Positions 7,453 to 32,055 of a DNA stretch of 37,643 nucleotides are shown piece by piece; position 1 is the stretch's first letter; each line of letters starts with the position of its first letter. The DNA comes from a virus. The notes under the pieces are model-generated. The model worked only from the letters and a program-made list of their open reading frames with translations. It was not told the DNA's origin and made no database searches. Made by a program: the position numbers and the translations under genes. The stretch lies in IMG/VR virus record IMGVR_UViG_3300025809_000048, positions 1 through 37,643 of that record; one strand, written 5' to 3'.

Positions 7453-8895
7453 ATGGCAGGTTCAGTACAGACTAGTCCGGGCTTTGATTTACAGCCCTCA
7501 GCACAACAAGTGCCGACAGCGACTAATTACATTACAGATTTTAACTTCTTAAGTCAGTATCTACCGGATACTTACGAGAAGGAATTCGAGCGTTACGGTA
7601 ATCGTACCGTAGCATCTTTCCTACGATTGGTTGGAGCAGAGATGCCTTCTAACTCAGACCTTATCAAATGGGCAGAGCAAGGAAGACTACACACTAAATA
7701 CGTTAACTGTAGCTCAGGTGCAGCAGCAGCGCAAGGTACTGCAACTATTACAGTAGCAGATGTTCTTGACCCTAATAGACAGAATATTGGCTTAACAGCA
7801 GGTTCTATTGCTATTCGTGTAGGTAATACAGTTATGATTTCTGACAACGCAGGTTCAGGAAGCAATAAAGGGGTTGTAACTTTGGTTGATACAGCAGCAG
7901 GTACTTTCAATGTAGCTTATTATGAAGGTACAGGTCAAGCGTTTGGTAACACCGCAACCTTAACTGTATTTATTTACGGTTCTGAGTTTAAGAAAGGAAC
8001 GAATGGTATGGCAGGTTCTTTAGAGGCTTCTGATGAAATCTTTGAAAACAGTCCAATCATCCTTAAAGATAAGTATGCAGTATCAGGTTCTGATATGGCT
8101 CAAATCGGATGGGTTGAAGTTACTACAGAGAATGGTGCGGCAGGATACCTTTGGTACTTGAAGTCTGAGCACGAAACTCGTCTTCGTTTTGATGACTACC
8201 TAGAAACATCTATGTTGGAGGCGGTTCCTGCAGCAGCAGGCTCAGGTGCAGCATCAGCAACAGGTGATGCAGGTAACAAAGGTTCTGAAGGTGTATTCTA
8301 CGTTGTAGAGAACAGAGGTAACGTATGGTCAGGTGGTAACCCTAACGTATTGGGTGACTTTGACGCTGTTATCCAACGTCTTGACAAGCAAGGTTCTATT
8401 GAAGAGAACGTAATCTTCGTTGACCGTCAGTTCGGATTCGATGTTGATGACATGTTAGCTGCTCAGAACTCTTACGGTGCAGGTGGTACGTCTTACGGAC
8501 TATTTGACAATGACGAAGAGATGGCTCTTAACTTAGGATTCACAGGATTCCGAAGAGGTTATGACTTCTACAAGTCTGATTGGAAATACTTGAATGACCC
8601 AACTATGCGTGGTGGTTTACCATCAGGAGCAGGTTCAGGAAAAATTAACGGATTGTTAGTTCCTGCAGGTTCAACTTCAGTGTATGACCAAATCTTAGGT
8701 AAGAACGCTAAGCGTCCTTTCTTACATGTACGTTACCGTGCTTCACAAACTGAAGACCGACGTTACAAGACTTGGATTACAGGTTCAGCAGGTGGCGCAG
8801 CTACTTCTAGCTTGGATGCAATGGAGGTTAACTTCTTGTCTGAGAGAGCTGTATGTACTTTAGGTGCAAACAACTTCTTCTTATTCCAAGAGTAG
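7453..8895 (+). CDS. Major capsid protein
   Basis: This 480-residue protein follows the scaffold with an A-rich leader (TTTTAAAAAAACAAAAAA) and no Shine-Dalgarno site, typical of strong Bacteroidota translation. The segment VASFLRLVGAEMPSNSDLIK and a later block with GSDMAQIGWVEVTTENG and ETRLRFDDYLETSM are of the kind seen in capsid proteins of Bacteroidota podoviruses. An HK97 fold is inferred. Residues about 92-180 are a Gly/Thr/Val-rich beta insertion (TATITVADV to TLTVFIYG), likely a surface domain. Of 20 Arg codons, 15 are CGT/CGA, against almost pure AGA/AGG in the portal, and Asn AAC is common, so the gene looks codon-adapted for high output. A strong terminator follows. Confidence 0.9.
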   Translation: MAGSVQTSPGFDLQPSAQQVPTATNYITDFNFLSQYLPDTYEKEFERYGNRTVASFLRLVGAEMPSNSDLIKWAEQGRLHTKYVNCSSGAAAAQGTATITVADVLDPNRQNIGLTAGSIAIRVGNTVMISDNAGSGSNKGVVTLVDTAAGTFNVAYYEGTGQAFGNTATLTVFIYGSEFKKGTNGMAGSLEASDEIFENSPIILKDKYAVSGSDMAQIGWVEVTTENGAAGYLWYLKSEHETRLRFDDYLETSMLEAVPAAAGSGAASATGDAGNKGSEGVFYVVENRGNVWSGGNPNVLGDFDAVIQRLDKQGSIEENVIFVDRQFGFDVDDMLAAQNSYGAGGTSYGLFDNDEEMALNLGFTGFRRGYDFYKSDWKYLNDPTMRGGLPSGAGSGKINGLLVPAGSTSVYDQILGKNAKRPFLHVRYRASQTEDRRYKTWITGSAGGAATSSLDAMEVNFLSERAVCTLGANNFFLFQE

Positions 8896-8961: not shown

Positions 8962-9714
8962 ATGAAAAAAACAGTAGAGTACGTAGACAAGCAGTATAAA
9001 TTATTAGGGAATACAACTCCGTTATCATTTATGCTCGCATCAAGAAACACAAGAAGATTTCCATTGCTATGGTTTGATGAGGAGAAAGGAGAGAACAGAG
9101 CCCTTCGATACGCAAGAAACCAAAAGAGTCCGTTTGAGGACGAGCAGGATGGGAATGCAATATTAGAGCCTATCATATTCGATGACGGCTTCCTTACAGT
9201 TCCAAAAACAAATCAGGTATTACAAAAGTTCTTAGAGATACACCCATCTAATGGTGTTAAGTACGCTACCATTGACAAAGCTAAAGAGGCTAAGGAGATA
9301 GTAGAAGACCTTAACGTAGAGGTTGATGCATTAATTGCAGCTCGCGAGCTTTCAATAGAGCAGATAGAGGCCGTAACCCGTGTAGCGTTTGGTACAGACC
9401 CAAGCAACATCACTTCGGCAGAGCTTAGGAGAGATATTCTTTTATTCGCTAAGCAAGACCCACACTCATTCTTAGCTGTTGTAGGAGACGCTTCGCTTCA
9501 GATTGACTCTAAGGTTCAGTCGTTCTTTGATAAGAACGTGTTAACGTTTAGAAACAACAAGAAGGATGTATTCTTTAATACGCCAAGCAATAAGAAGCGT
9601 ATGCTGACAATACCTTTCGGTGAGGACCCGCTGTATGTGGTGTCGTCATACCTACAGAGCGATGAGGGACTTGACGTCCTTGAGTTCTTAGAGAAGGTCG
9701 CAGAGACCAAGTAG
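8962..9714 (+). CDS. Conserved head-region protein, unknown function
   Basis: This 250-residue protein lies alone between two terminators, right after the capsid gene. The N-terminal third carries conserved-looking blocks: PLSFMLASRNTRRFPLLWFD, then RALRYARNQKSPFEDEQDGN and EPIIFDDGFLTVPKTN (about 18-85). These read like a globular beta domain. The rest is helical, with an acidic C-terminus (SDEGLDVLEFLEKVAETK). I have the impression that proteins like this follow the capsid gene in other Bacteroidota phages, but I know no assigned role. Head completion, decoration or a transcription-related role are all possible. The leader is A/T-rich and lacks a TAnnTTTG element, so it probably depends on read-through past the upstream terminator or on a promoter I do not recognise. 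Confidence 0.75.
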   Translation: MKKTVEYVDKQYKLLGNTTPLSFMLASRNTRRFPLLWFDEEKGENRALRYARNQKSPFEDEQDGNAILEPIIFDDGFLTVPKTNQVLQKFLEIHPSNGVKYATIDKAKEAKEIVEDLNVEVDALIAARELSIEQIEAVTRVAFGTDPSNITSAELRRDILLFAKQDPHSFLAVVGDASLQIDSKVQSFFDKNVLTFRNNKKDVFFNTPSNKKRMLTIPFGEDPLYVVSSYLQSDEGLDVLEFLEKVAETK

Positions 9715-9715
9715 T

Positions 9716-9750
9716 AAAAGAGGAGGCAGAAATGCTTCCTTTTTTTTTTG
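9716..9750 (+). terminator. Rho-independent terminator upstream of the fibre-like cluster
   Basis: Stem GGAGGCA/TGCTTCC (9722-9728 with 9733-9739, one G-U pair, extendable by A9721-T9740) closes a GAAA tetraloop. It is preceded by AAAAG and followed by ten T residues. The T-run merges directly into the next promoter. Confidence 0.87.
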
Positions 9751-9759
9751 CTATCTTTG
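9746..9759 (+). promoter_or_regulatory. Putative promoter TTTTG-c-TATCTTTG
   Basis: TATCTTTG (9752-9759) matches the Bacteroidota -7 element, with TTTTG one base upstream formed by the end of the terminator T-run. It drives the four-gene 9800-13610 unit across a roughly 40-base A-rich leader. No -33 box is visible. Confidence 0.68.
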
Positions 9760-9799: not shown

Positions 9800-10105
9800 A
9801 TGGTAAAATTTATCAAAGTAAACGACATTCCATCGCACGAGGTACTTATCATACCTATTGCAGAGATGTTAAAAGTACAAACAAGTAGTAGTACTGTAAC
9901 TCAGGTAAGGTATGGTACTGTAAATACAGATATAAATATTATATCTATTGCTCACGACCCAATGCCTTCATCTTCAGATACCGCTATGGTTGATTGGGTT
10001 ACTAAGCAATTTATTGCAGCTAATCAACGACCTTGGTCAGAGCCGATGTATAATGTATCAGCTTCTGATGCTCCTTATTCAATTTCTAACATTACATTAA
10101 CATAA
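9800..10105 (+). CDS. Short core-only member of the four-gene fibre/decoration-like family (1)
   Basis: The protein has 101 residues. It begins MVKFIKVND and ends YSISNITLT. In between are a beta segment INIISIAHDP and a helix, TAMVDWVTKQFIAANQRPWS. The next gene has the same order (MTKYIYLND, DTITITHATN, a helix with SNWKE, then ISSIVYS), and the two following long proteins end in the same kind of module. It is therefore the first of four tandem relatives. All are small, secreted-looking beta/helix proteins without signal peptides, in a virion gene block behind their own promoter. Capsid decoration or a fibre-base role is inference. Confidence 0.75.
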   Translation: MVKFIKVNDIPSHEVLIIPIAEMLKVQTSSSTVTQVRYGTVNTDINIISIAHDPMPSSSDTAMVDWVTKQFIAANQRPWSEPMYNVSASDAPYSISNITLT

Positions 10106-10107
10106 TT

Positions 10108-10401
10108 ATGACAAAGTATATATATTTAAACGACGGAACGAGTAACGTAATAATTTCAAATGTTGAAAAAATCATGGCTGTTGCAACAGCAGGAACTACA
10201 TTATTAACATTAAAGATATTTCAAGAAGTTGATAATGATAGTTTTGATACCATAACAATAACTCACGCTACTAACGTAGGAGCGCACGATATGAAGGTTT
10301 GGATTCTTGGAGTTATTCAAGACTTGTATAGTTCAAATTGGAAAGAGGTTGCTCCATTACAGGTTCCACCTAGAGCGATTTCATCAATAGTTTATTCTTA
10401 A
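10108..10401 (+). CDS. Short core-only member of the four-gene fibre/decoration-like family (2)
   Basis: The protein has 97 residues from ATG 10108, two bases after the previous stop. The N-terminus MTKYIYLND mirrors its neighbour. It then has an ISNVEKIMAVATAGTTLLTL strand pair, FDTITITHATN, an amphipathic helix (MKVWILGVIQDLYSSNWKE) and the closing strand PPRAISSIVYS. The same layout reappears at the end of the 504-residue protein (ADTVTITYAEA, VQMRNFFQNAIVES, VLITDIVAS), which supports common descent. It carries no jelly-roll insertions. Function is unknown; it is probably a virion surface component produced with its relatives. Confidence 0.75.
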   Translation: MTKYIYLNDGTSNVIISNVEKIMAVATAGTTLLTLKIFQEVDNDSFDTITITHATNVGAHDMKVWILGVIQDLYSSNWKEVAPLQVPPRAISSIVYS

Positions 10402-10405
10402 GCCT

Positions 10406-12094
10406 ATGGCAAAATATTTAGGAATACCGTTAACGGTATCAAATGGTAATAGGACACCTCTCACGGCGCAGCCTGAAAAGCTTGTAAACGGAGATTTTTC
10501 CGACCCAACAGATGGGTGGACTTTTGGTAATAACACATCAATAGTAGGTGGTAAGTTGGTTTGTACAAGTTCAACTGCTTTTAGTCCTACCTATCAATCT
10601 GTAACAATATCTCAAAAAGCTTATGTAGTTACGTTTACGATAGATAGCATTTCGGGCGGTAGCGTAACTGCAAGCTTTCAAAACTCAAAAAACCTTACAC
10701 CTAGAAGTGTCGCGGGTACGTATACAGAAAAAGTGGTTGCTCCCTCACCTTCTACTAGGTTTGATTTTTATACAACTGACGCAGGAGTTTCTTTTGAAAT
10801 AAGTAACGTTTCAATAAAAGAAATAGCAGCTACAGAAACGCCTACCTATGGCTCACCTGAATTGGCTACGAATGGGAACTTTGAAGATGCTAGTGATTGG
10901 TCCGGAACAAATTGGACTGTAAGTGGTAATGGTAAAGCTGTTCACGCAACTACCAATAATGACAAACTTATTCAATCAATGGGTTTGGAATCAGGTAAGA
11001 AATATGCAATACAGTGGACTGTTGTAGATTACAGTTCAGGTTCTTTAGGTGTATCCGCTGCTAGTGGAACTAAGTCAGGTGATGACTCTGTAAGTGCTAA
11101 CGGAACTTACAATACCGTTTTAGTAAGTAACGGTACAGCTTTTCAGATTTTTGCTAGTGGGGTAGCTTCATTATCAAGCGTATCCGTAAAAGAAGTTCCT
11201 TATGTAGAAAGCTCTAACTTAGTAACTTCTCCGTACACACAATCTTTTGATTTAGAAGAAAATTGGAGTGCGGCAAACTCTTTGTTAAATTTTATAGGTG
11301 ATAACTCAAGCCCTAGATATGCTACTTCTAATTCTAAAATTAATCTTGAGTTTGGTAAAACTTACAGGGTTAAGTTTGATATACTTAATAAAACATTAGG
11401 CGGCACAACAAATGCAGGTATAAGTAATACGGGGTACTTTAGTGGTGTTCCTTCATCTCAAAGAGTTACAACCTCAACAGGAAATACTAGCTTTGACTTT
11501 ATAGCTGTTCTTGAAGATGTAGCGGGTAAAGCTGAGGGAATAAAACTTGTTGGTCAAAGTACTGATACATTTACGATTGCCAACTTTTCAGTTACTGAGG
11601 TTCAATACAATTATCTACAGGTAACTGATGGTGGATTTAAGAAATCAGTAAAAGAGGGTGATGTAATCTTCAATACATCCACAAGTACAGAGGGTGTTGT
11701 TAAACAGATTTTAGATAACAATGTATTACTAATGTCTAATGACAACTTCTCTACGGCAGGTGAGTTCTTTAACGTATTCGCAGCTAATGGTGACACGAGA
11801 GGTAATCAGGTTGTGCGAACGGATAACTACATTATGTCTGAGTATGATGAGAATGCAAGCAACCCACAGGAGACTTCATTTTGGTTTGCAGGTGGTGTTA
11901 ACGCAGATAAGGTTGCCTTAACGCAGCTTAACCCTGCAACTAACACGTTCTTTGTAGCAGGTGTTATTGAGGAGTACCTTGAGAGGCTTAACACTCAGTC
12001 AGCAACGGCAAGCAGATTAGATATTCCTTTAGACGCGTTTAGAGACCACAAAAATAACGAGGTACTAGTAATAACAGCTATAACACTTTCATAA
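10406..12094 (+). CDS. Long family member with three jelly-roll-like modules (putative head or tail fibre)
   Basis: The protein has 562 residues. The short family N-terminus (MAKYLGIPL) is followed by three modules of 110-130 residues. They start near KLVNGDFSDPTDGW (25), LATNGNFEDASDW (153) and NLVTSPYTQSF (271), and close with NVSIKEI (134-140), SVSVKEV (258-264) and NFSVTEV (393-399). The NG-D/N-F-W opening and V-S-V-K-E closing strands are typical of carbohydrate-binding-type jelly rolls on phage fibres. Residues about 402-562 carry the C-terminal family core, with the helix FVAGVIEEYLERLN and the final strand VLVITAITLS. The likely role is binding surface glycans, in the host envelope or in mucus or matrix. 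Whether it sits on the head or the tail is not decided by sequence. Confidence 0.75.
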   Translation: MAKYLGIPLTVSNGNRTPLTAQPEKLVNGDFSDPTDGWTFGNNTSIVGGKLVCTSSTAFSPTYQSVTISQKAYVVTFTIDSISGGSVTASFQNSKNLTPRSVAGTYTEKVVAPSPSTRFDFYTTDAGVSFEISNVSIKEIAATETPTYGSPELATNGNFEDASDWSGTNWTVSGNGKAVHATTNNDKLIQSMGLESGKKYAIQWTVVDYSSGSLGVSAASGTKSGDDSVSANGTYNTVLVSNGTAFQIFASGVASLSSVSVKEVPYVESSNLVTSPYTQSFDLEENWSAANSLLNFIGDNSSPRYATSNSKINLEFGKTYRVKFDILNKTLGGTTNAGISNTGYFSGVPSSQRVTTSTGNTSFDFIAVLEDVAGKAEGIKLVGQSTDTFTIANFSVTEVQYNYLQVTDGGFKKSVKEGDVIFNTSTSTEGVVKQILDNNVLLMSNDNFSTAGEFFNVFAANGDTRGNQVVRTDNYIMSEYDENASNPQETSFWFAGGVNADKVALTQLNPATNTFFVAGVIEEYLERLNTQSATASRLDIPLDAFRDHKNNEVLVITAITLS

Positions 12095-12095
12095 G

Positions 12096-13610
12096 ATGGC
12101 GAATTATTTAAAACTAAACAAGTCGTACATAGGTAACGACATATTAGAGAACCCTGAGTTTGCAACGCTAGGTCCGGAGATAATAGTTAATGGTAGTTTT
12201 ACTGACGTTCCGAACGGAACTGATGTATCGTCTTTACCTAATTGGACTCTAGCGGAAACACCTGTTTCAGCGACTATAGAGGATAATAAGATAAAGCTTG
12301 TAGCTGATAGTGCTAGTGATGGTGTAAAGTACACAGCAGCAGGATTAACGGTAGACAAAGTATATAACTTCACATGTGAGATTTCAGGAAATATTACAGA
12401 CATTCAGACTTACTATAAAGCAAGTGGATTAAGTGGTGATATTGACATAACCTTAACAGGAAACGCTTTATCCTTAGAGTTTAAAGCAAAAGGAACAACT
12501 GCACTTTTATACTTTAATAGGTTAACTGCGGGTACTACAGAATTTTTTAACTTTCAATTAAAAGAAACAGGTCAGGTTGAGTATATTGACAACCCTTCGT
12601 TTTTAGATGTTGATGATGATACCGATGTAACTACTTTAACGGGGTGGTCTACGGCTGACGCAAGTTATCCTGCTACATCAACAGATGTTGTAGGCCAAAA
12701 GCTTGTAATAGTATCAGGCGGAATATACGAAGGAGCGGGGTATGACTTAACGGGTATACCTGACGGAGTGGAGGTTAACCTTAAAATAGAAAGTGTAACC
12801 GGTGATATTGGTAATGAAGCTTTATTTTTAAATGGTACAAGTGTTACTATTCCAACTGATTCAGGGTCTGTTGACTACACGTTTATAAAAGAAGCTAGTA
12901 ACACTAAGTTATTGTTTAGAGCAGGCTTTAATACTGCAGGTACTACCACCTATGGCAACATCTCAATCCAACCTACTAACGTGTTTGCTTACGCGTGGAA
13001 TAGAGGTGGCTCAGGGGTTGGTGCTTCAGGAGAGTTTGCTGTATTTAGTGGTGGAACCGCTACGTTAACAACCGCAGCGGGGTCTTCTAATGCCATTATA
13101 GGTACTGACACACCTGCCTACTCATCAGGTACTGAATTGGTTCTTAAGTTTAACGTGCTAAGCAAATCAGAGGGTGTTATCTTTCAAATCTTTGATAGAG
13201 TAAATTACCTTACTGTTGACGCAAAGCTTGGAGAGAATGAGTTTAGATATAAAGCAGCGGCTAACGGCACTAACCTTCTTGTTAACGTAAAGAGCACAGG
13301 TGCTACGGATGAGTTCATTAGCTTAAGCGATATAGAGCTCCAAGAGGTTAAGAATCAACCGAAGCTTATCGGAGTTGATAACGTATCTACAGTGAGTGCG
13401 CCAACAAACAGCACGGTTGTAATTAACAACGGTCTGACTGATGGAGCTGACACTGTAACTATCACGTATGCAGAGGCTGACGCAACCTCAACGGTACAGA
13501 TGAGGAACTTCTTCCAAAATGCAATCGTAGAGTCTGCTAACGCAAATAACACAGGTAAGGTTATTGAGATTAAGTCTCCTGTCCTTATCACCGACATTGT
13601 AGCATCTTAA
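12096..13610 (+). CDS. Long family member with three jelly-roll-like modules (second putative fibre)
   Basis: The protein has 504 residues and starts MANYLKLNKSYIGND. It has three modules, about 28-158, 161-294 and 295-418, opening with IIVNGSFTDVPNG, EYIDNPSFLDVDD and VFAYAWNRGG and closing with NFQLKET, NISIQPT and DIELQEV. The remaining 80 residues match the short family proteins: a DTVTITYAEA strand, helix MRNFFQNAIVESAN and terminal VLITDIVAS. It differs from its neighbour in every module yet keeps the same order, so the pair look like diversified duplicates. It is the last gene of a unit that ends in a strong terminator. A carbohydrate-binding virion fibre is the best guess. Confidence 0.75.
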   Translation: MANYLKLNKSYIGNDILENPEFATLGPEIIVNGSFTDVPNGTDVSSLPNWTLAETPVSATIEDNKIKLVADSASDGVKYTAAGLTVDKVYNFTCEISGNITDIQTYYKASGLSGDIDITLTGNALSLEFKAKGTTALLYFNRLTAGTTEFFNFQLKETGQVEYIDNPSFLDVDDDTDVTTLTGWSTADASYPATSTDVVGQKLVIVSGGIYEGAGYDLTGIPDGVEVNLKIESVTGDIGNEALFLNGTSVTIPTDSGSVDYTFIKEASNTKLLFRAGFNTAGTTTYGNISIQPTNVFAYAWNRGGSGVGASGEFAVFSGGTATLTTAAGSSNAIIGTDTPAYSSGTELVLKFNVLSKSEGVIFQIFDRVNYLTVDAKLGENEFRYKAAANGTNLLVNVKSTGATDEFISLSDIELQEVKNQPKLIGVDNVSTVSAPTNSTVVINNGLTDGADTVTITYAEADATSTVQMRNFFQNAIVESANANNTGKVIEIKSPVLITDIVAS

Positions 13611-13631
13611 TGTTATAATGTAATAGGTTGA

Positions 13632-13663
13632 AAGAGGAGCTCCATAGGGGCTCTTTTTTTTTT
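13632..13663 (+). terminator. Rho-independent terminator after the fibre-like cluster
   Basis: AAAGAG precedes the stem GAGCTCC/GGGGCTC with a three-base loop (ATA) and one T-G pair, and the hairpin is followed by ten T residues. As at 9716-9750, the T-run runs straight into a promoter. Confidence 0.85.
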
Positions 13664-13674
13664 GCGTATATTTG
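13660..13674 (+). promoter_or_regulatory. Putative promoter TTTTG-cg-TATATTTG
   Basis: TATATTTG (13667-13674) fits TAnnTTTG, with TTTTG two bases upstream. The ATG of the neck gene begins 15 bases downstream. It restarts transcription for the tail genes after the preceding terminator. Confidence 0.65.
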
Positions 13675-13689
13675 TGAAAAGATTTAATA

Positions 13690-14385
13690 ATGATAGATGA
13701 CGTTAGAACCACAGTACTTGCTGTGTTAAATAAGAATAACTACGGGTATTTATCTCCAATGGATTTTAACCTGTACGCTAAGCAAGCGCAGCTTGAAATA
13801 TTCGAGAACTTATTTTACCAATACAATACTCAGATAAACTCAGAGAACGCGCGTAGGTCAGGAACTGACTACGCTGACATATCAAAAGGAATACTTGAGG
13901 ATATAGATTTGTTTAGTGAGAGCTCAACTTTAACGAGTAATTACGGAACACACGTTTTACCTAACAATTATTACTATATAAATAGGATTACAATAAGTAT
14001 TAATAATATTAATGTTGAGGTTGAAAGAGTCTCTCAAGGCAAGATTACAGCTTTAGAAATTTCCCCACTTACAGCTCCAAGTGATGAGTTCCCTGTATAC
14101 ACTCAAGATGGAGGTGTTATAAAGATTACACCAAATTCGGGCCAAGCAACTGCAAGATATATTAGATACCCTTCAACGCCCAAGTGGACTTATACCGCAG
14201 TAGGGAGTAATGTACCTATATTTAATCCAAGTGCGGGGGATTATGAGGATTTTGAGCTACCCCTTAGCTATCAAAACGAGTTGGTGAATAAGATACTTAA
14301 GTACGCAGGGGTTGAGATTCGTGAGACCATGGTAGTTGATTTTGCTAATAAACAGGAACAACAAAATAATATAGAGCAACAATAA
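13690..14385 (+). CDS. Neck/ring structural protein 1 (putative)
   Basis: The protein has 231 residues. The N-terminus VRTTVLAVLNKNNYGYLSPM followed by FNLYAKQAQLEIFENLFYQY is a helical block of the type found in head-tail connector or ring proteins of Bacteroidota podoviruses. A beta-rich middle (NNYYYINRITIS, KITPNSGQATARYIRYPSTP) and a final helix LPLSYQNELVNKILKYAGVE follow. The C-terminus is Gln/Asn-rich (KQEQQNNIEQQ). Its stop overlaps the next start as TAATG (14383-14387), so it is made together with the second ring protein. The role is inferred from position between the fibre cluster and the tail hub plus family resemblance. Confidence 0.68.
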   Translation: MIDDVRTTVLAVLNKNNYGYLSPMDFNLYAKQAQLEIFENLFYQYNTQINSENARRSGTDYADISKGILEDIDLFSESSTLTSNYGTHVLPNNYYYINRITISINNINVEVERVSQGKITALEISPLTAPSDEFPVYTQDGGVIKITPNSGQATARYIRYPSTPKWTYTAVGSNVPIFNPSAGDYEDFELPLSYQNELVNKILKYAGVEIRETMVVDFANKQEQQNNIEQQ

Positions 14386-24582: not shown

Positions 24583-27500
24583 ATGAACGAGCAGGTATTA
24601 AAAGATTTATACGATAGAGCTGTATCTAAAGGTTATCAAAAATCTATTGAAGAGTTTAATGCGTTACTACAAAGTAATGAAAACGTATTAGCCGATAACT
24701 ACGGTTACGTGCAAGAGAAGGGATACCAAAAGTCTTTTGAAGATTTCTCTGTTTTAGTAGGAGTAAAAAAAAAAGAAGATTCGGTTTCAGTTTCTCAGCA
24801 GGTCGTTACGGATTCTACTATACCACAGCAGCAGGAAGAGGTTATTTCTTCGGAGTCTATCACACTTGAAGAACCTTCTGAATATACTGTTGTACAGGAT
24901 GCAGAACCAAGTAGACAGTATCAGGGTGATAAACCGATTTCATTAGAGAAGTCTACCGCCATTGAGAGGGTGTTCGGTAAGAACGAACTTACCGATTTGT
25001 TTGGTGACATCTATAGAGCAGGAGCAGCAGGTCAAGCCCAAGGTGGTTCTGTTGACGAGGCTTTAGAGTTGTTTGCAAAAGGCTCTGACGTTTCAGATGA
25101 TGACATCCAAGAATTTATTGCTGCACAAAAGCGCATGCAGTCTATGGGTGAGTCTGATGAGATGCGTGATTTCCAAAAAATTTATCAAGAGAATGGTGGC
25201 GGTTGGCTAGGCTTTGTAAAAGGTGTGGCTAAGAACCCTACCGTTATACCACAGTTATTTGTATCGTCAGTTAGCGCTATGGCTACCCCTGCAGTCCTTG
25301 CGGGCGCAGCAAGTGGTGCAGCGGGTGGTGCTTTAGTTGGTGGACCTGCCGGTGCTTTAATAGGTGCTATGGGTATGGCGGGTACTACACTTGAGACAGG
25401 CCTTACTTATGCTGAGCTACTGCAAGAGCAGCTTGGTGACAAGCCTATGACCACTGAGAATATAAGAGCTGTATTGGGAGACAAGGAGGCGATGGATGAG
25501 ATTCGCTTTAAAGCTGTAGGGCGTGGTCTTACAATTGGTACTATTGATGCTATCACGGGCGGTCTTGCAGGTAAGCTTACTACTAGCGTTGTAAAATCTA
25601 CAGGTCGAAAACTTTTAGGTGCTACCGCAGGTGGTACTGTTGAAGCTGTAGGTGGTTCTGCGGGTGAGGTTGCAGGTAGATTGGTTGCGGGTCAGGAGAT
25701 GGACGTTGCTGAGATTGGTTTTGAAGGTATTGCAGGTACGGCCACAGCTCCATTAACTGTGGGTTATGGTCTATACAAGGCCCCTAAGTACCACATAAAT
25801 GGTAAAGATAAGAATGCTGCAGTATCAGGGCCTGACATGGCTAGGTTTATTAGAGAGGCTAACCCTAACGATTTAATTAAGGCTGAGGTTAACATTGTTA
25901 ATGACGATGTGCTACAGGCTGAGTACACAAAGAAATACCAAGAGGCTGTAACTAAGAGAGATATATCTGAGGCTGACCCTGAGATGAACCAACCTACGCT
26001 TGACGCTATCACAGAGCTTCAGGTAGAGTTAAATAACCTTAAAGGTAAAGACAATCAGGTAGCTAAGGATAGAGCTAAAGTCATAAGAGAGGAGATAAAG
26101 AATCTCCAAGAGAACCCATTAACAGAAGAAACAGATGCCATTCAAGAGCCAAGCGCAGAGACGGTGGATGTACAAGAACAAGCCGCAGTTAGCGAAGGAG
26201 TTCGAGAAGGAGACACCGAAATCACAGCAGTTACCGAAGAGGTTGCACAAGAAGATGTACAAGAACAAGATGTCTCTCCGGAGCTACAGAGCGAGGTAGA
26301 TAAAGCTATTGCGGACGAGCAGTTAGATTTAACCGAGTTAGATGATGTGATTACTGAGGAAGTTGCACCTGAAGAGACGGTTGCTGAGGAAGTCGCACCT
26401 GAGCTTACTGAGCAAGAGGAAGTTCAGAAAATGATTGATGATGTTACTGAGGAGTACGAAGGGGAGATTGAAACCATTCAGGAAGAGATAGCTATAGAAA
26501 AAGGGAACACCAAAGCAGGTGTTGATGAGCTGAAGCAGTTAATAAAAGAAACAAAAGAAAACAAAGACCTAACCCTTACTCAAAGATTGAGTGAGTTAGA
26601 GAATTTAAGAGAGCAGTTATCTGAGTTCAAGGAAGACCAAAAAAATCAACTAGATATCTACAAAGAAGATATTAAGGAGAAGAAACGTGAGATGAGGTCT
26701 GAGATTATTTTCAATAAAAAAGAAATTAAAAGAAGTAGAAAGTTAGCTGATAAAGGTCCTGAATTTAGATTAAGAGATGAGGTAGAATCTCAGATTGACG
26801 AGTCAGAAGTAGCTAAGGTTACTGACGTTATTAACGAGATAGAGTCACCAAATAAAGATGTTAAACTAGGCTTTGAAGCCTCAAGCCCTATAGATGTTAA
26901 TGCTTTAAATGAAAGAACGGACACACCCTTAAACTCTACAACATTAGAGGTTGTAGATGGTATCCCAACTATATTTAACATAACAGACCAACTTACTACA
27001 GGTGATACTGTTAACCCTGAAACGGGCAACACTATTGACAACCTTAAGGGTGCGGTAGGATTTAACGGAACTAAGGGGCATGAGAACTTTGCTTGGGCTA
27101 ACGTAGACACTAAAGAGGCTGACACTATAATCTCAAAAGCTAAGCAGGTATACGAAGATAACAAGTCTTTGTTTGACGATTGGTGGGCTGCAAACCCTGA
27201 GTATAATGGATTAGTGCCAATGAATATTGTTAAGATGGGTGAGAGCTCTGTAGTTTCCAACGAGGCTACGTTTAGAGTTTTGTCTGATAATATAAAATCA
27301 CTACCCTCTAAGAATAAAAAGGCGGCTCTTAAAGCATTAAAGAGTGAGTTGGATTTAGAGATTAAAAAATTAAGCTCAATAGAATCTCCTTCTAAGTCGC
27401 AGTTAAAAACCCTAGGGCTTTACCGTAGAATTAAAAATCAGGTATCTAATTCAGGGGCTACGTCTATTGACCAAGTTTTATCTAGTGAGTTTGCTAAGAA

Positions 27501-30500
27501 AATTTCACTACCCGCTAGGACTTTGCTTATGGGAAAGGTTACATCTAGTACCCCTAATACTCCGGGAGCTAAATCTAAAACTCCGTCAGCATCAAAGAAG
27601 CCTGTCGTGTTAGCTTTATTGAAAGGTCAACCTAGCGAGGCTAAAACAAAATTAAACCTCGGTGTAATAACTGACACAATTACAGACCCTGAATTAAGAA
27701 ACGTGCCTATTGGTAGTGTAATTTCATTGGTAGGTGTTGACGTTTTAAACCCTGAGGTGCTAGAGACTACGCATCCAAACTATCCTTACGGCGTGAAGGG
27801 TAAATCAATTGGTGTACTAGAAAATCCTGTGCCTATGGAAAAAGCTTATCCTAAAGCGTATGAGAAAAGCTTTAAGGTACTTATTCAAAAGGAGTCTAAG
27901 GGAGCTAAAGCGTCTGCGCCTAGCATACTAAGTCAGCAAGCAGGTGTTGGTATAGGTATACCTTCTCTAGATTATGTGGGTGCTGTAACTAGCTCTAATA
28001 CTGACAATGTAAATAAGCTTGTTTCTTTTTTAAGAAAAGCGTTCCCAAGCGTAACCCTGTCTGTAGACTCAAAAGAGTTTAACGAGGTTATGAACTCGGA
28101 AGGGGTTAAGAAGTATTTAAAAGGCGGGGAAGTTGTTTACGGTGTAACGGTTAATGGTGACGTTTATGTTAACCCTGATATTCACAACTCAGAGTCGGCT
28201 ATATTTAATACAGCTATACATGAGATGGGTCACGTATGGACTGACTTTCTTCAGACAACTGAAAAAGGGAGAGAGATATACAATAAAGGTGTTGAGTTAG
28301 TAAAGGAAACAGATGTATACAAGAAGCAACTTGAGGTATTCAATGGTGATGTAGCTAAAGCAGCCAATGAAGCCTTAGCAATTCTTATCGGTAACAAGGG
28401 TGAGACTATAACTCAAGGAGCCTTAAAGAGTGAGTTTACTGAGTGGTTACTTGGTTTATGGAACTACATAAAACAGGAGTTTAAACTATCCAAAGACTTA
28501 ACGGCTGAAGATGTTCAGGGCTTAACTCTTGACCAATTTCTAGGAACTGCTCTAGCTGACATACTTAGTGGTGAGGAAATTAAAACCACAAAAAAACAGA
28601 GAGCTGAGATGAAGTCTTCGGCTGCATTTAAAAAGGCAGACGCTTCTAGTAGGGGTACGAAGCTATCTAACTTCAAGGTAAAATCATTCGTTGAGAAGGC
28701 TCGTGGTTTGGGTTACTCAGACGCAGCTATTAGTGCATTGCTTACACAGAGGGGCGTAAAGCCTGAGTTGGTTGCTGAGGTTGTTGCTACTGAGAAGACC
28801 GCAGCACCAAAGCCTAAGCTTACAGAAGAGTTAGTGCCGGGGTATGATAGATTAGCTAATGAAGTAGAGGGTATTATTAAAAAATCAAAGAAACGTGGTG
28901 TTAAGTTTAACGACATCATGGACAACGTAGCTGAATATGTTAAAGGTTCTCGTGTTTATGAAACAGCTACCGATGTAGTTCGAGAAAAATTACTGAGAGA
29001 TATACGTAAGCAGTTTGGTTTAAAGGAGAAGACAGCTCCTACACCAAGTCGTTTGCTCGGTGCTATAAGAGATGTTAAGAAGGTAACACTGAAGGAAAGT
29101 GAGCTGTTAAAGATTAGGTTGCAAGAGGCTGTTAAGGCTGCGAAGGATGCTAAGAATTTTATAGCTGATACGCAGCAAGCTTTATCCGCTGAGGTTGACG
29201 CTTTAATTAAGAAAGGTACTCTTACTCAAAGGCAAGCATCTGCTATATTGAAAAAGTTTGCTAAGACTGACGTGACTAAAGCTAAGTCTGTAGACGCTTT
29301 CACTGAGTATGTAGCTAAAGTATTCAACGACTCAGAAGGAAAGTACAAGAAGGGTGTTGTAAAAGATATTCTAAAGTTTGTTACCGAAAAAGCTAAGAAA
29401 GCTATTACTGACAGTAATAAAGCTAGAGGTAAAGGGTTAGATGCACAAGGACAGCAGTTTTTTGCTGCAGCTAAAAGAGTTCTTAAGAGAATCCTTGAGG
29501 GCGACTTTGACGCTGAATCAATAGAGAAGAAGTTCTTCCCTGACATTGATGAGGTGTTATCTAAGGAAGGAAAGCTTACGGTTAAAGAGCAAAACCAACT
29601 TGACGCTTACATTGCTTTTGAATCATTCAAAGGCGTAGAAGACATGAGTGTTCAAGAAGTTGAAGCACTATTAAAAGACTTAAAGGAAGCTCGTTCTGAA
29701 TCAATATCTAGACTAAAAGAAAAACTTGAGGCTGAGAAGGCTGAGGTGAAGGCTCTTAGAGATGAGGCTGACTCCAATATACAACAAGGATACTCAGCTC
29801 TTTACAATGAGGACGGTTCACCACTGACTGAAGAGCAGCTTAGAGCTCGTCAGAATGAAAGATATAATGCGTTGATGAGTGGTCAGCTAGGTAAAGCTTT
29901 CAAGCTTTATGTGTCTGAGTTTCCTTTAACCAAGCCGGGTAAATTCTTAACAGGTATAGCTAATAACTTAAAGCACTTAGGTACTCTAACAAATGGATTG
30001 GACAAGGTTGGTAAGTTCTTTACTAAGAATGTATACGAATCCCTTAACGCCATGGAGAGTTTGTATGCTAAAGGATTACAGAGTACTCGTACTAAGATGG
30101 ATGAGATAGCTAGCTCCATAGATGGTGTTAAGAACTATAAAGACATTCAAAGTAAACTAGCTTCAGGAGCTCACAAGATTGATGGTATCACCACGGGTGA
30201 GGGTAAGTCCTTAGGAACTAATCTTTTTAACGCAGACCAATTGATGAGAGTGTACGCTCTTAGTAAGAACGATGTTCAAAGAGAGAAGCTTAAAAAGCAA
30301 GGGTTTACTGATGAGAAGTTAAAGCAAATTGAAAGCATCCTTGGTAAGGATGTTGTAGAATTTACGGACAAGGTGGTAGAGTATTTAAGTACGGAGTACT
30401 TTGAGCAAACCAATGATGTATACTCTGATGTAAATAACGTAAACTTAAGCTACATAGAGAACTACTTTCCTACTCAGACAATAAAAACTAAGGTTGACTC

Positions 30501-32055
30501 TAAACTTTTAGATGAAGGAGATTTCAACGGTGTGTTTAACGCTCAAGTAGCTCCTGCATTAAAGGAGAGGGTTGATTTGACAGGTGACGTATCTATACTT
30601 AACGCTGACTTTACAACAACCTTAGAGAATCACTTTGAAACTATAGAGCGATACAAGTCTTACGCTGAAGGGGTTAAGAAGTTAAACTCTATATTTAAGT
30701 TTAAGTCGGTTGATACACTACTAGAACAAACAGGTTTAGGTAAAGTGGTTAGGAATTCTGTTAACTACGCAGTGAATCCTAATGGTGGGCAGCAGGCAAT
30801 ACAGCCTACCATTATAGATAAGCTTATGACGAAGTACACAGGCTTTGCTCTAGCCTTCAAGTTAGCTCAGGTTGTAAAACAGTCAACGTCTTTTGTCAAC
30901 GCGTTTGAAGACTACTCATATAGAGGCAAAGGTAAAAGTAAAGTACCGGGGTTAGACCTTGTAATGTTTATGATGGAGGCTGCTTATACAGCGGCAACCC
31001 TTCCAATACAGATTCAGAAAGCGTACAACATGTCCCCTATGTTTAAGGAGCGTGTTAAAAAAGGCTTAGAGGGAGATGTGTTTGGTTTAGAGACAGGCTC
31101 TGTTACCTTCAAGCCAATCGGTAAATCTAACACCATGTGGGGTAAAGCTGTTAGAGCTTTCAAAACAGGTGCAGGTTCACCTACAGTGCTTGGGGATATA
31201 CTTGGTGTGATGGGTTATATGATTAACTATAACCGAGACATTGCAAATGGTATGAGCGAGGCTGACGCTTTGAAGAAGTTTGAGAACTATAACGCTACTC
31301 AGCAGTCTCGTAGAGCGACTGAGAAGATTCCTTTACAGATGAATAGTAACTCCTTAGTTAGAGGGTTTACAATGTTTGGTAGCACACTATTCTTGCAGAT
31401 GAACAAAGTTATGCAGGGCTTTACAAACGTAATGAGCTCAGCCTCTAAGGGCAGTATACCTACAGCTAAAGATACTAGAGCTATTATATTAAACCTTGGT
31501 GTAGCCAACGTGATGTTTGCTCTTGCAGCGAACTTAGCGAAGTTTATTAAGGGTGATGATGAGGATAGAGATGAGGCTCTACTTAGAATGAAGGACGCTA
31601 TGATGGGTTTAAATCTTATCTATCAAGTGCCTTACTTTGGAGCAGCTATAGAGTCTGCGGTAAATAAATCAAGAGGTATTAATAGACCTGCCGACGTAGC
31701 TGTAAACCCATTCAACTCTATAATGAGGAAGGTTAAGAAGTTGTCTAAGGACGATAAGCCTATCGAGGCCGCTACACGTGTTGCTGTGGAACTTACTATA
31801 GGAGCTCAGGTTGACCCGTTTATTGGTTTGTTTAACGGATTCACTGAAGGGTTTGATGAGGATGTAATGTATGATGTTCTTGGTGTGAGTTCTTCTTACA
31901 GGCCCGCAAAACAAACTAAGAGCAAGAAGGGCATAAGTAAATCCGCTTTAAAGAAAGCCAACCCTAGGGCTTACCAAAGATTATATGGCCCGGGCTCAGC
32001 TTACTATAAGCAACAGCAAAGAATTAAGGAGCTGAAGAAAAGGCAGGGTAAATAA
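24583..32055 (+). CDS. Giant multidomain (polyvalent) ejection protein with zinc-metalloprotease motif
   Basis: The protein has 2490 residues, 20 percent of the window. It starts with a duplicated motif, SKGYQKSIEEF and EKGYQKSFEDF (about 15-53). Then come a Gly/Ala-rich hydrophobic segment (about 219-262, able to enter membrane), an acidic linker with EEVAPE repeats, and a charged coiled coil (about 605-725). A zincin motif, IHEMGHVW (H1213, E1214, H1217), has a possible third ligand E1263 in NEALAIL. Long Lys/Ala-rich helices follow. The conserved C-terminal third contains ENYFP (1959-1963), TGFALAFKLAQVVKQSTSFV (about 2086-2105), a hydrophobic helix near 2300-2324 and a basic tail. This mosaic resembles large polyvalent proteins injected with phage DNA. 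No RNA-polymerase motif was seen. Confidence 0.82.
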   Translation: MNEQVLKDLYDRAVSKGYQKSIEEFNALLQSNENVLADNYGYVQEKGYQKSFEDFSVLVGVKKKEDSVSVSQQVVTDSTIPQQQEEVISSESITLEEPSEYTVVQDAEPSRQYQGDKPISLEKSTAIERVFGKNELTDLFGDIYRAGAAGQAQGGSVDEALELFAKGSDVSDDDIQEFIAAQKRMQSMGESDEMRDFQKIYQENGGGWLGFVKGVAKNPTVIPQLFVSSVSAMATPAVLAGAASGAAGGALVGGPAGALIGAMGMAGTTLETGLTYAELLQEQLGDKPMTTENIRAVLGDKEAMDEIRFKAVGRGLTIGTIDAITGGLAGKLTTSVVKSTGRKLLGATAGGTVEAVGGSAGEVAGRLVAGQEMDVAEIGFEGIAGTATAPLTVGYGLYKAPKYHINGKDKNAAVSGPDMARFIREANPNDLIKAEVNIVNDDVLQAEYTKKYQEAVTKRDISEADPEMNQPTLDAITELQVELNNLKGKDNQVAKDRAKVIREEIKNLQENPLTEETDAIQEPSAETVDVQEQAAVSEGVREGDTEITAVTEEVAQEDVQEQDVSPELQSEVDKAIADEQLDLTELDDVITEEVAPEETVAEEVAPELTEQEEVQKMIDDVTEEYEGEIETIQEEIAIEKGNTKAGVDELKQLIKETKENKDLTLTQRLSELENLREQLSEFKEDQKNQLDIYKEDIKEKKREMRSEIIFNKKEIKRSRKLADKGPEFRLRDEVESQIDESEVAKVTDVINEIESPNKDVKLGFEASSPIDVNALNERTDTPLNSTTLEVVDGIPTIFNITDQLTTGDTVNPETGNTIDNLKGAVGFNGTKGHENFAWANVDTKEADTIISKAKQVYEDNKSLFDDWWAANPEYNGLVPMNIVKMGESSVVSNEATFRVLSDNIKSLPSKNKKAALKALKSELDLEIKKLSSIESPSKSQLKTLGLYRRIKNQVSNSGATSIDQVLSSEFAKKISLPARTLLMGKVTSSTPNTPGAKSKTPSASKKPVVLALLKGQPSEAKTKLNLGVITDTITDPELRNVPIGSVISLVGVDVLNPEVLETTHPNYPYGVKGKSIGVLENPVPMEKAYPKAYEKSFKVLIQKESKGAKASAPSILSQQAGVGIGIPSLDYVGAVTSSNTDNVNKLVSFLRKAFPSVTLSVDSKEFNEVMNSEGVKKYLKGGEVVYGVTVNGDVYVNPDIHNSESAIFNTAIHEMGHVWTDFLQTTEKGREIYNKGVELVKETDVYKKQLEVFNGDVAKAANEALAILIGNKGETITQGALKSEFTEWLLGLWNYIKQEFKLSKDLTAEDVQGLTLDQFLGTALADILSGEEIKTTKKQRAEMKSSAAFKKADASSRGTKLSNFKVKSFVEKARGLGYSDAAISALLTQRGVKPELVAEVVATEKTAAPKPKLTEELVPGYDRLANEVEGIIKKSKKRGVKFNDIMDNVAEYVKGSRVYETATDVVREKLLRDIRKQFGLKEKTAPTPSRLLGAIRDVKKVTLKESELLKIRLQEAVKAAKDAKNFIADTQQALSAEVDALIKKGTLTQRQASAILKKFAKTDVTKAKSVDAFTEYVAKVFNDSEGKYKKGVVKDILKFVTEKAKKAITDSNKARGKGLDAQGQQFFAAAKRVLKRILEGDFDAESIEKKFFPDIDEVLSKEGKLTVKEQNQLDAYIAFESFKGVEDMSVQEVEALLKDLKEARSESISRLKEKLEAEKAEVKALRDEADSNIQQGYSALYNEDGSPLTEEQLRARQNERYNALMSGQLGKAFKLYVSEFPLTKPGKFLTGIANNLKHLGTLTNGLDKVGKFFTKNVYESLNAMESLYAKGLQSTRTKMDEIASSIDGVKNYKDIQSKLASGAHKIDGITTGEGKSLGTNLFNADQLMRVYALSKNDVQREKLKKQGFTDEKLKQIESILGKDVVEFTDKVVEYLSTEYFEQTNDVYSDVNNVNLSYIENYFPTQTIKTKVDSKLLDEGDFNGVFNAQVAPALKERVDLTGDVSILNADFTTTLENHFETIERYKSYAEGVKKLNSIFKFKSVDTLLEQTGLGKVVRNSVNYAVNPNGGQQAIQPTIIDKLMTKYTGFALAFKLAQVVKQSTSFVNAFEDYSYRGKGKSKVPGLDLVMFMMEAAYTAATLPIQIQKAYNMSPMFKERVKKGLEGDVFGLETGSVTFKPIGKSNTMWGKAVRAFKTGAGSPTVLGDILGVMGYMINYNRDIANGMSEADALKKFENYNATQQSRRATEKIPLQMNSNSLVRGFTMFGSTLFLQMNKVMQGFTNVMSSASKGSIPTAKDTRAIILNLGVANVMFALAANLAKFIKGDDEDRDEALLRMKDAMMGLNLIYQVPYFGAAIESAVNKSRGINRPADVAVNPFNSIMRKVKKLSKDDKPIEAATRVAVELTIGAQVDPFIGLFNGFTEGFDEDVMYDVLGVSSSYRPAKQTKSKKGISKSALKKANPRAYQRLYGPGSAYYKQQQRIKELKKRQGK

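Follow-up and report, generated by a model that had tools for sequence, protein, structure and literature searches.

We analyzed positions 1 to 37,643 of IMG/VR virus record IMGVR_UViG_3300025809_000048, the window of 37,643 nucleotides studied here, and surveyed in it a cassette of four genes located at 9800-13610. The cassette encodes two small proteins (c1 and c2) and two long ones (L1 and L2), all of which contain one core of about 95 residues. It is probably a virion-decoration or adhesin operon, accessory and self-contained, whose core would dock most likely on the capsid and whose genes are exchanged in partner pairs. The features which can be read from the sequences are a common core, an insertion point, graded module numbers, a private promoter and terminator layout, pairwise exchange, module swaps and apparent dispensability. 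Coordinates are on the plus strand of the window, and the loci of related phages are cited by L numbers of three digits.

The four open reading frames (ORFs) lie on the same strand, separated by 1-4 bases, and are c1 (101 aa, 9800..10105), c2 (97 aa, 10108..10401), L1 (562 aa, 10406..12094) and L2 (504 aa, 12096..13610). Their positions, their starts (MVKFI, MTKYI, MAKYL and MANYL, respectively) and their ends (ISNITLT, ISSIVYS, ITAITLS and ITDIVAS) are exactly as quoted in the initial annotation, which had called them paralogues, and this kinship was found to go beyond chance. The first hidden Markov model (HMM) was built from 19 bare cores, single or paired and all from other phages, and it matches c1 (E 6e-8), c2 (E 2e-5) and the C-terminus of L2 (residues 419-502, E 7e-6); L1 fails against this narrow model, its 3.7 bits being equalled by 36 of 1000 shuffles. 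A wider leave-out model, from whose alignment cores of the c1/c2 type seen in the window were absent, gives c1 49.5, c2 40.3, L1 18.3 and L2 38.1 bits, in each case above all 1000 shuffles (best shuffle overall 11.0 bits, best L1 shuffle 9.2 bits). Profile-profile comparison with the bare cores gave 97.7% for the L2-slot core and 91.3% (E 9e-7) for the L1-slot core, and at most 0.3% for five control families. Pairwise identity among the four is only about 20%. The core of L1 covers residues 461-562 (11786..12094) and that of L2 residues 418-504 (13347..13610), the latter also having BLASTP matches to bare L2-slot orthologues; c2 is placed by pair typing as well. The N-terminal strand and linker of L1 (residues 1-23, 10406..10474) form a conserved anchor with 79-96% identity among relatives, and those of L2 (residues 1-24, 12096..12167) have 58-100%. 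The shared ends persist in alignments with relatives, being their conserved parts.

The core gave nothing convincing against Pfam and PHROGs; its matches to phrog_23039 (E 0.008), CARDB (one member, E 0.0016) and DNA-damage protein chains (E 0.5) were taken as chance. No similarity of the cassette DNA to phage records was found, and tblastn of c1, c2, L2 and two bare cores of relatives against annotated phages returned no credible match, L1 giving only a weak jelly-roll match in an Edwardsiella phage. The full core alignment has no stretch conserved enough for scanning. AlphaFold2, run on c1 with 49 aligned cores, predicted seven strands and one helix with a predicted local distance difference test score (pLDDT) of 87.6. 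The helix near the C-terminus expected from the sequence is present in this model, but the predicted ending is helix-strand-strand and not helix-strand. Foldseek of the core found no PDB match at E 0.001, and the core profile gave only chance matches among PDB sequences, with no crassvirus chain. Eight viral predicted structures matched at E < 0.001, all unannotated, including A0A516LYE6, A0A516LU00 and A0A516LJI9 of BFVD (E 1e-6 to 3e-6, template modelling (TM) score about 0.8) and A0A7S9SUY7 of Virus NIOZ-UU157 (E 3e-4). The last virus also has a 546-aa protein, A0A7S9STV3, with the same predicted fold, so that small and large proteins occur in one virus. These BFVD proteins share the predicted fold of the cassette core but, unlike the cassette, have no function or insertion series described.

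The two long proteins had been read as members of an insertion series, and the orthologues of closely related phages strongly support that reading, since proteins of the same slot and with the same termini have 0, 1, 2 or 3 jelly rolls between their N-terminal strand and their core (module types assigned by alignment and by eye). L1-slot orthologues all start MAKYLGIP. Those having no jelly roll are of 180 aa with one module of V-x-x-G-D type (L129, L130, L132, L134), or of 252 aa where that module is doubled (L131); one jelly roll is found in proteins of 305-310 aa (L119, L120, L122, L124), two in proteins of 439-461 aa (L093, L095, L096, L098-L101) and three in proteins of 562-606 aa (the window, L089, L091). 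The L2 slot holds either bare cores of 100-101 aa (L126-L132, L134) or proteins of about 480-534 aa with modules. Most of the bare forms match L2 residues 424-500 by BLASTP with 31-39% identity (E 2e-13 to 4e-17), and that of L131 matches L2 with 24% identity (E 6e-11). The insertion point, after the first strand, is common to the L1 and L2 lineages, and VxxGD-like modules were inserted independently at the same point in L046 (two modules) and in the 168-183-aa proteins of L171-L216.

L1 module 1 (10475..10834) and module 2 (10835..11206) are CBM_4_9-like jelly rolls related to the other modules, both predicted all-beta at about pLDDT 70-88 (52-87 by block in module 1). Module 1 is missing from the two-module orthologues L093-L101, and the orthologue of module 2 in L095 and L098 passes PF02018. 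Module 3 (11207..11605) is jelly-roll-like, with a profile match to L2 module 1 at 99.1%. The three jelly-roll-like modules of L2 (12168-12575, 12576-12980 and 12981-13346) have profile links to those of L1, and profiles connect all six with one another, the link being least clear for L2 module 3. Three jelly rolls in each long protein is what had been described; a further module of L1 had been overlooked, which is not a jelly roll and occupies about 60 residues directly before the core (about 401-460, 11606..11785, beginning VKEGDVIFNTST). It is of the V-x-x-G-D type, the same as the sole module of the short L1-slot orthologues.

The curated cut-off of Pfam CBM_4_9 (PF02018) is 25.9 bits, and the modules of L095 and L098 pass it with 39.1 and 38.5 bits; L2 module 1 of another relative (L100) stays just below it (E 1.7e-5). 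The window modules are, by their profile family, CBM_4_9-like and are not called members. Pfam scans found no immunoglobulin (Ig) families, the modules being CBM_4_9-like instead. Foldseek of the L1 model retrieved PDB proteins bearing carbohydrate-binding modules at E 1e-10 to 1e-5, among them Bacteroides surface glycan-binding protein B and GH101 enzymes. Its matches to Cry, Vip and reelin were ascribed to shared jelly-roll domains and not to shared function.

The bare cores were typed by pairs, and in 20 of 20 cassettes both bare cores before L1 are of the same type, although these cassettes are not independent counts, some being from near-identical phages. Type I occurs in the window, L071, L099, L120, L121 and L134, type II in L098, L100, L122, L126 and L129, and type III in L119, L124, L128, L130, L132 and L133, and ABABAB arrays of cores were found in L090-L092. 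A short L1 always stands with a bare L2 (8/8) and a long L1 always with a long L2. Pair type mixes freely with the state of L1 and L2, type I being found with 0, 1, 2 and 3 jelly rolls, and on the g250 tree of 20 rows, where the module count of L071 was assumed because its L1 is truncated, pair type needs 9 changes. By this pattern c1/c2 and L1/L2 are exchanged as pairs, each independently of the other. Because pair types are matched within the pair and mixed with the L1/L2 state, the c2-L1 boundary is a recombination boundary and the c1-c2 boundary, equally close, is not. In L095, where a type I c1 precedes L1, the c2 slot that separates them (L095:871-1214) is without an intact listed ORF and is possibly a broken c2.

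The exchange can also be followed between single phages. Up to the cassette promoter L122 and L124 share 98-99% identity, and after the first jelly roll they share 95%; in the stretch between these two points the c1/c2 pair and the jelly roll differ from one phage to the other. Module 2 of L1 has 87% identity to module 2 of the protein at L089:1960-3699, whose modules 1 and 3 have only 28% and 24%; among relatives the L1 core keeps 70-99% identity, and modules 1 and 3 go down to 16-32%. Contigs nearly identical to the window (L136 with 99.8%, L106 with 98%) end or diverge at the modules. The metagenome contigs L136, L106, L088 and L071 end or start inside L1 or L2, and such breaks are expected if strain-level variation of the modules disrupts assembly. 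Retroelement-driven variation was considered and set aside, as no RVT_1 was found in the window record or six relatives, records which may be fragments.

The cassette site lies between two structural genes that are conserved, g250 on the left (8962..9714) and g231 on the right (13690..14385), the latter a virion structural protein (phrog_14543, E 6e-42). Occupancy was counted over complete loci related by the capsid protein. About two thirds of the relatives have an empty site, g250 directly adjoining g231 (70-174 bases) in 50 complete loci with two isolates included, and it is empty also in the isolates MW202828, the elemo phages and phi38:1; about 22 complete loci carry core-family genes there, usually one protein of 92-106 aa. 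Across relatives the cassette has from 0 to 9 genes. The empty sites thus indicate a dispensable cassette, and dispensability is a frequent trait of decoration proteins. Among 215 core proteins (all later loci), 185 have g250 upstream and g231 downstream, 29 show one flank with a contig end opposite, and 1 shows neither, and by these counts the core family is restricted to a single site in a single group of phages, the Bacteroidota podophages. The same site holds small unrelated-looking ORFs in Maribacter phage Panino (L002:12333-13436) and, on the opposite strand, in Cellulophaga phage phi18:3 (L298:6024-7806), which makes it a more general hotspot. Core genes are absent from the cultured relatives covered here (phi38:1, elemo, phi18:3 and Panino), whereas the cassette loci L121 and L134 come from marine samples. 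In L036 a 392-aa gene (L036:11293-12471) follows three putative core-family genes in this site; its product starts like a signal peptide and contains a CHU_C type IX secretion signal domain (Pfam E 4e-15, above cut-off), and it is possibly a phage-encoded secreted protein of a Bacteroidota host.

The proposal of one transcription unit is supported by the flanking elements, because a putative terminator and a TATNTTTG promoter-like element stand immediately upstream of the cassette and again immediately downstream of it. The opening unit (9720..9759) consists of a terminator-like hairpin with T-run at 9720-9749 (-12.5 kcal/mol, z -2.9) followed by the promoter-like element TATCTTTG at 9752-9759, and the second (13630..13674; hairpin -16.7 kcal/mol, z -4.1) has a T-run and the element TATATTTG, and closes the cassette and opens the g231 unit. 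Units of terminator and TATNTTTG occur only twice in the whole window, the opening one and that at 13654-13674, with 0 expected and none in shuffles. Relatives share the layout of a hairpin, T-run and TATCTTTG element before the cassette and a second unit after it, and empty sites mostly have one terminator-promoter unit.

By its genes the window is a podophage fragment whose kin are phages of marine and aquatic Bacteroidota. The terminase, portal, capsid-like protein and downstream structural genes all match PHROG families, and by the capsid-like protein the named relatives are MW202828 from Manatee Spring (69%), Maribacter phage Panino (55%), Flavobacterium elemo phages (46%) and Cellulophaga phages. 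The probable major capsid protein (7453..8895; phrog_13704, E 2e-100) has gp104 of phi18:3 as homologue and g231 has gp112, both annotated from tandem mass spectrometry (MS/MS) of virions, as are the phi18:3 homologues of g307 and of the large protein following it. Sequence comparison of the capsid protein, g231, g250 and the portal with PDB found no relative, so a virion position is not transferable from crassvirus structures. A variable stretch of the capsid-like protein (residues about 110-160, SIAIRVGNTVMISDN) resembles by eye the VxxGD module of L1. Many relatives (L007, L010, L013, L023 and others) have in g231 an insert of about 80 residues near residue 102-110, which is absent from the window g231 and has no obvious link to cassette presence. 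A 2490-aa protein at 24583-32055 is without a Pfam match.

Under the reading as a decoration operon, every cassette protein would fold into the same small core, by which it would dock on the particle and most likely on its capsid. Whole modules would be accommodated by the loop that follows the first core strand, giving either a bare plug or an arm that bears between one and three jelly rolls of carbohydrate-binding-like type. Since c1 and c2 are exchanged together, as are L1 and L2, the proteins probably act in two pairs of partners. The conserved N-terminal strands and cores may provide the flanking homology for recombination that swaps the modules, and this swapping would change the surface to which the particle binds reversibly. 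Presence in the virion, a location on the capsid instead of the neck or tail, hetero-oligomerisation and glycan binding are all inferred from the gene position, the lack of an apparent signal peptide, the conservation pattern and the module family, and the host is the presumed target. The proteins begin directly with a core strand and have by eye no signal-peptide-like N-terminus, so the virion route fits better than secretion. A narrower reading is tentative and rather doubtful to us: a two-socket adhesin platform, in which a new anchor fold would form obligate hetero-pairs (c1+c2, L1+L2 and the ABABAB arrays of relatives), with the pair as exchange unit, a permissive loop for sugar-binding modules and plug-in diversification of the surface without a retroelement.

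Several points weigh against a capsid-borne adhesin. The attachment fold and the glycan-binding fibres that were initially proposed are putative, as the CBM_4_9 cut-off was passed only by modules of relatives; no Pfam match of the window L1 and L2 reaches cut-off, CBM_4_9 included, and the whole-chain TM of the Foldseek matches of L1 is low. The common fold is predicted well for c1 but the core region of the L1 model has a pLDDT of only 30-45, and therefore the membership of L1 rests on sequence profiles. The core lacks a solved or annotated relative from which a docking site could be read, and the tail-side gene g231 is likewise a neighbour of the site, which makes a neck or tail location possible. 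This location is the best surviving alternative, though we consider it unlikely: the proteins would be collar or side fibres on the neck or tail barrel, the core docking on a g231 ring. The cassette stands directly before the tail-side structural genes g231 and g307, and in lactococcal 936 phages the neck and tail proteins carry such modules for carbohydrate binding (PMC6669499); however, the cassette equally follows the capsid gene block, from 0 to 9 gene copies are more easily housed on a capsid, and g231 with or without its inserted segment occurs by eye at both occupied and empty loci. Still less probable is an action in or on the infected cell, for instance to prevent a second infection or to bind polysaccharide of the host during lysis. 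The cassette's own promoter-like and terminator-like elements, its dispensability and the type IX secretion signal of the L036 neighbour would fit such a role, but c1, c2, L1 and L2 have no apparent signal peptide or secretion domain, the cassette is locked to the structural gene block, and conserved ends with a variable middle are typical of particle-surface proteins. Convergence of short end motifs in unrelated beta proteins, to which the low pairwise identity and the failure of L1 against the narrow HMM might point, is refuted by the leave-out profile scores, the profile-profile controls and the bare orthologues in the same slot, and is extremely improbable.

Among the nearest known systems are the crassvirus head fibres gp21 and gp29 of phiCrAss001, a Bacteroidota podovirus, which like the putative cassette adhesins are distinct non-core surface proteins, two in number, from the head gene region; each has a short capsid anchor and an outward domain (Ig-like in gp29), and they are lacking in most related phages and were proposed to bind host or gut surfaces (PMC10172136). 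The cassette core shows no sequence match to them, and no homologous anchor was found; their anchor is N-terminal and their outer domain C-terminal, whereas the cassette modules are inserted inside the core, and no series of bare-core and modular paralogues is described for phiCrAss001. Hoc of T4, pb10 of T5 and gp17 of N4 are dispensable, modular beta-sandwich capsid decoration proteins thought to bind surface carbohydrates (PMC7602432). The cassette resembles them in its modular beta proteins and, as the empty sites indicate, in being dispensable; they have Ig-like modules in tandem in single genes, whereas the cassette has CBM_4_9-like modules inserted in a core and paired paralogues. In lactococcal 936 phages carbohydrate-binding modules are found in 'evolved' Dit, tail and neck proteins, and two of these modules bound host cells experimentally; as in the cassette, virion proteins of these phages occur with and without added modules in phage-specific combinations (PMC6669499). 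Those are siphophages of Gram-positive hosts with unrelated scaffolds and no dedicated cassette with a private promoter.

Beyond the initial annotation, the private terminator-promoter units, the pairwise exchange, and the unrelated pairs and modules in phages 98% identical in their flanks are, as read from the sequences, new. The core fold, without a solved relative or a Pfam or PHROG family, offers structural biology a new target, and a directly testable prediction about assembly follows from the pair rule. Sugar-binding domains on phage particles are already known; the stepwise growth of a small structural protein into a multi-domain adhesin is rarely seen, and here closely related phages preserve its steps side by side in their orthologues, where both the insertion point and the exchange units are defined.

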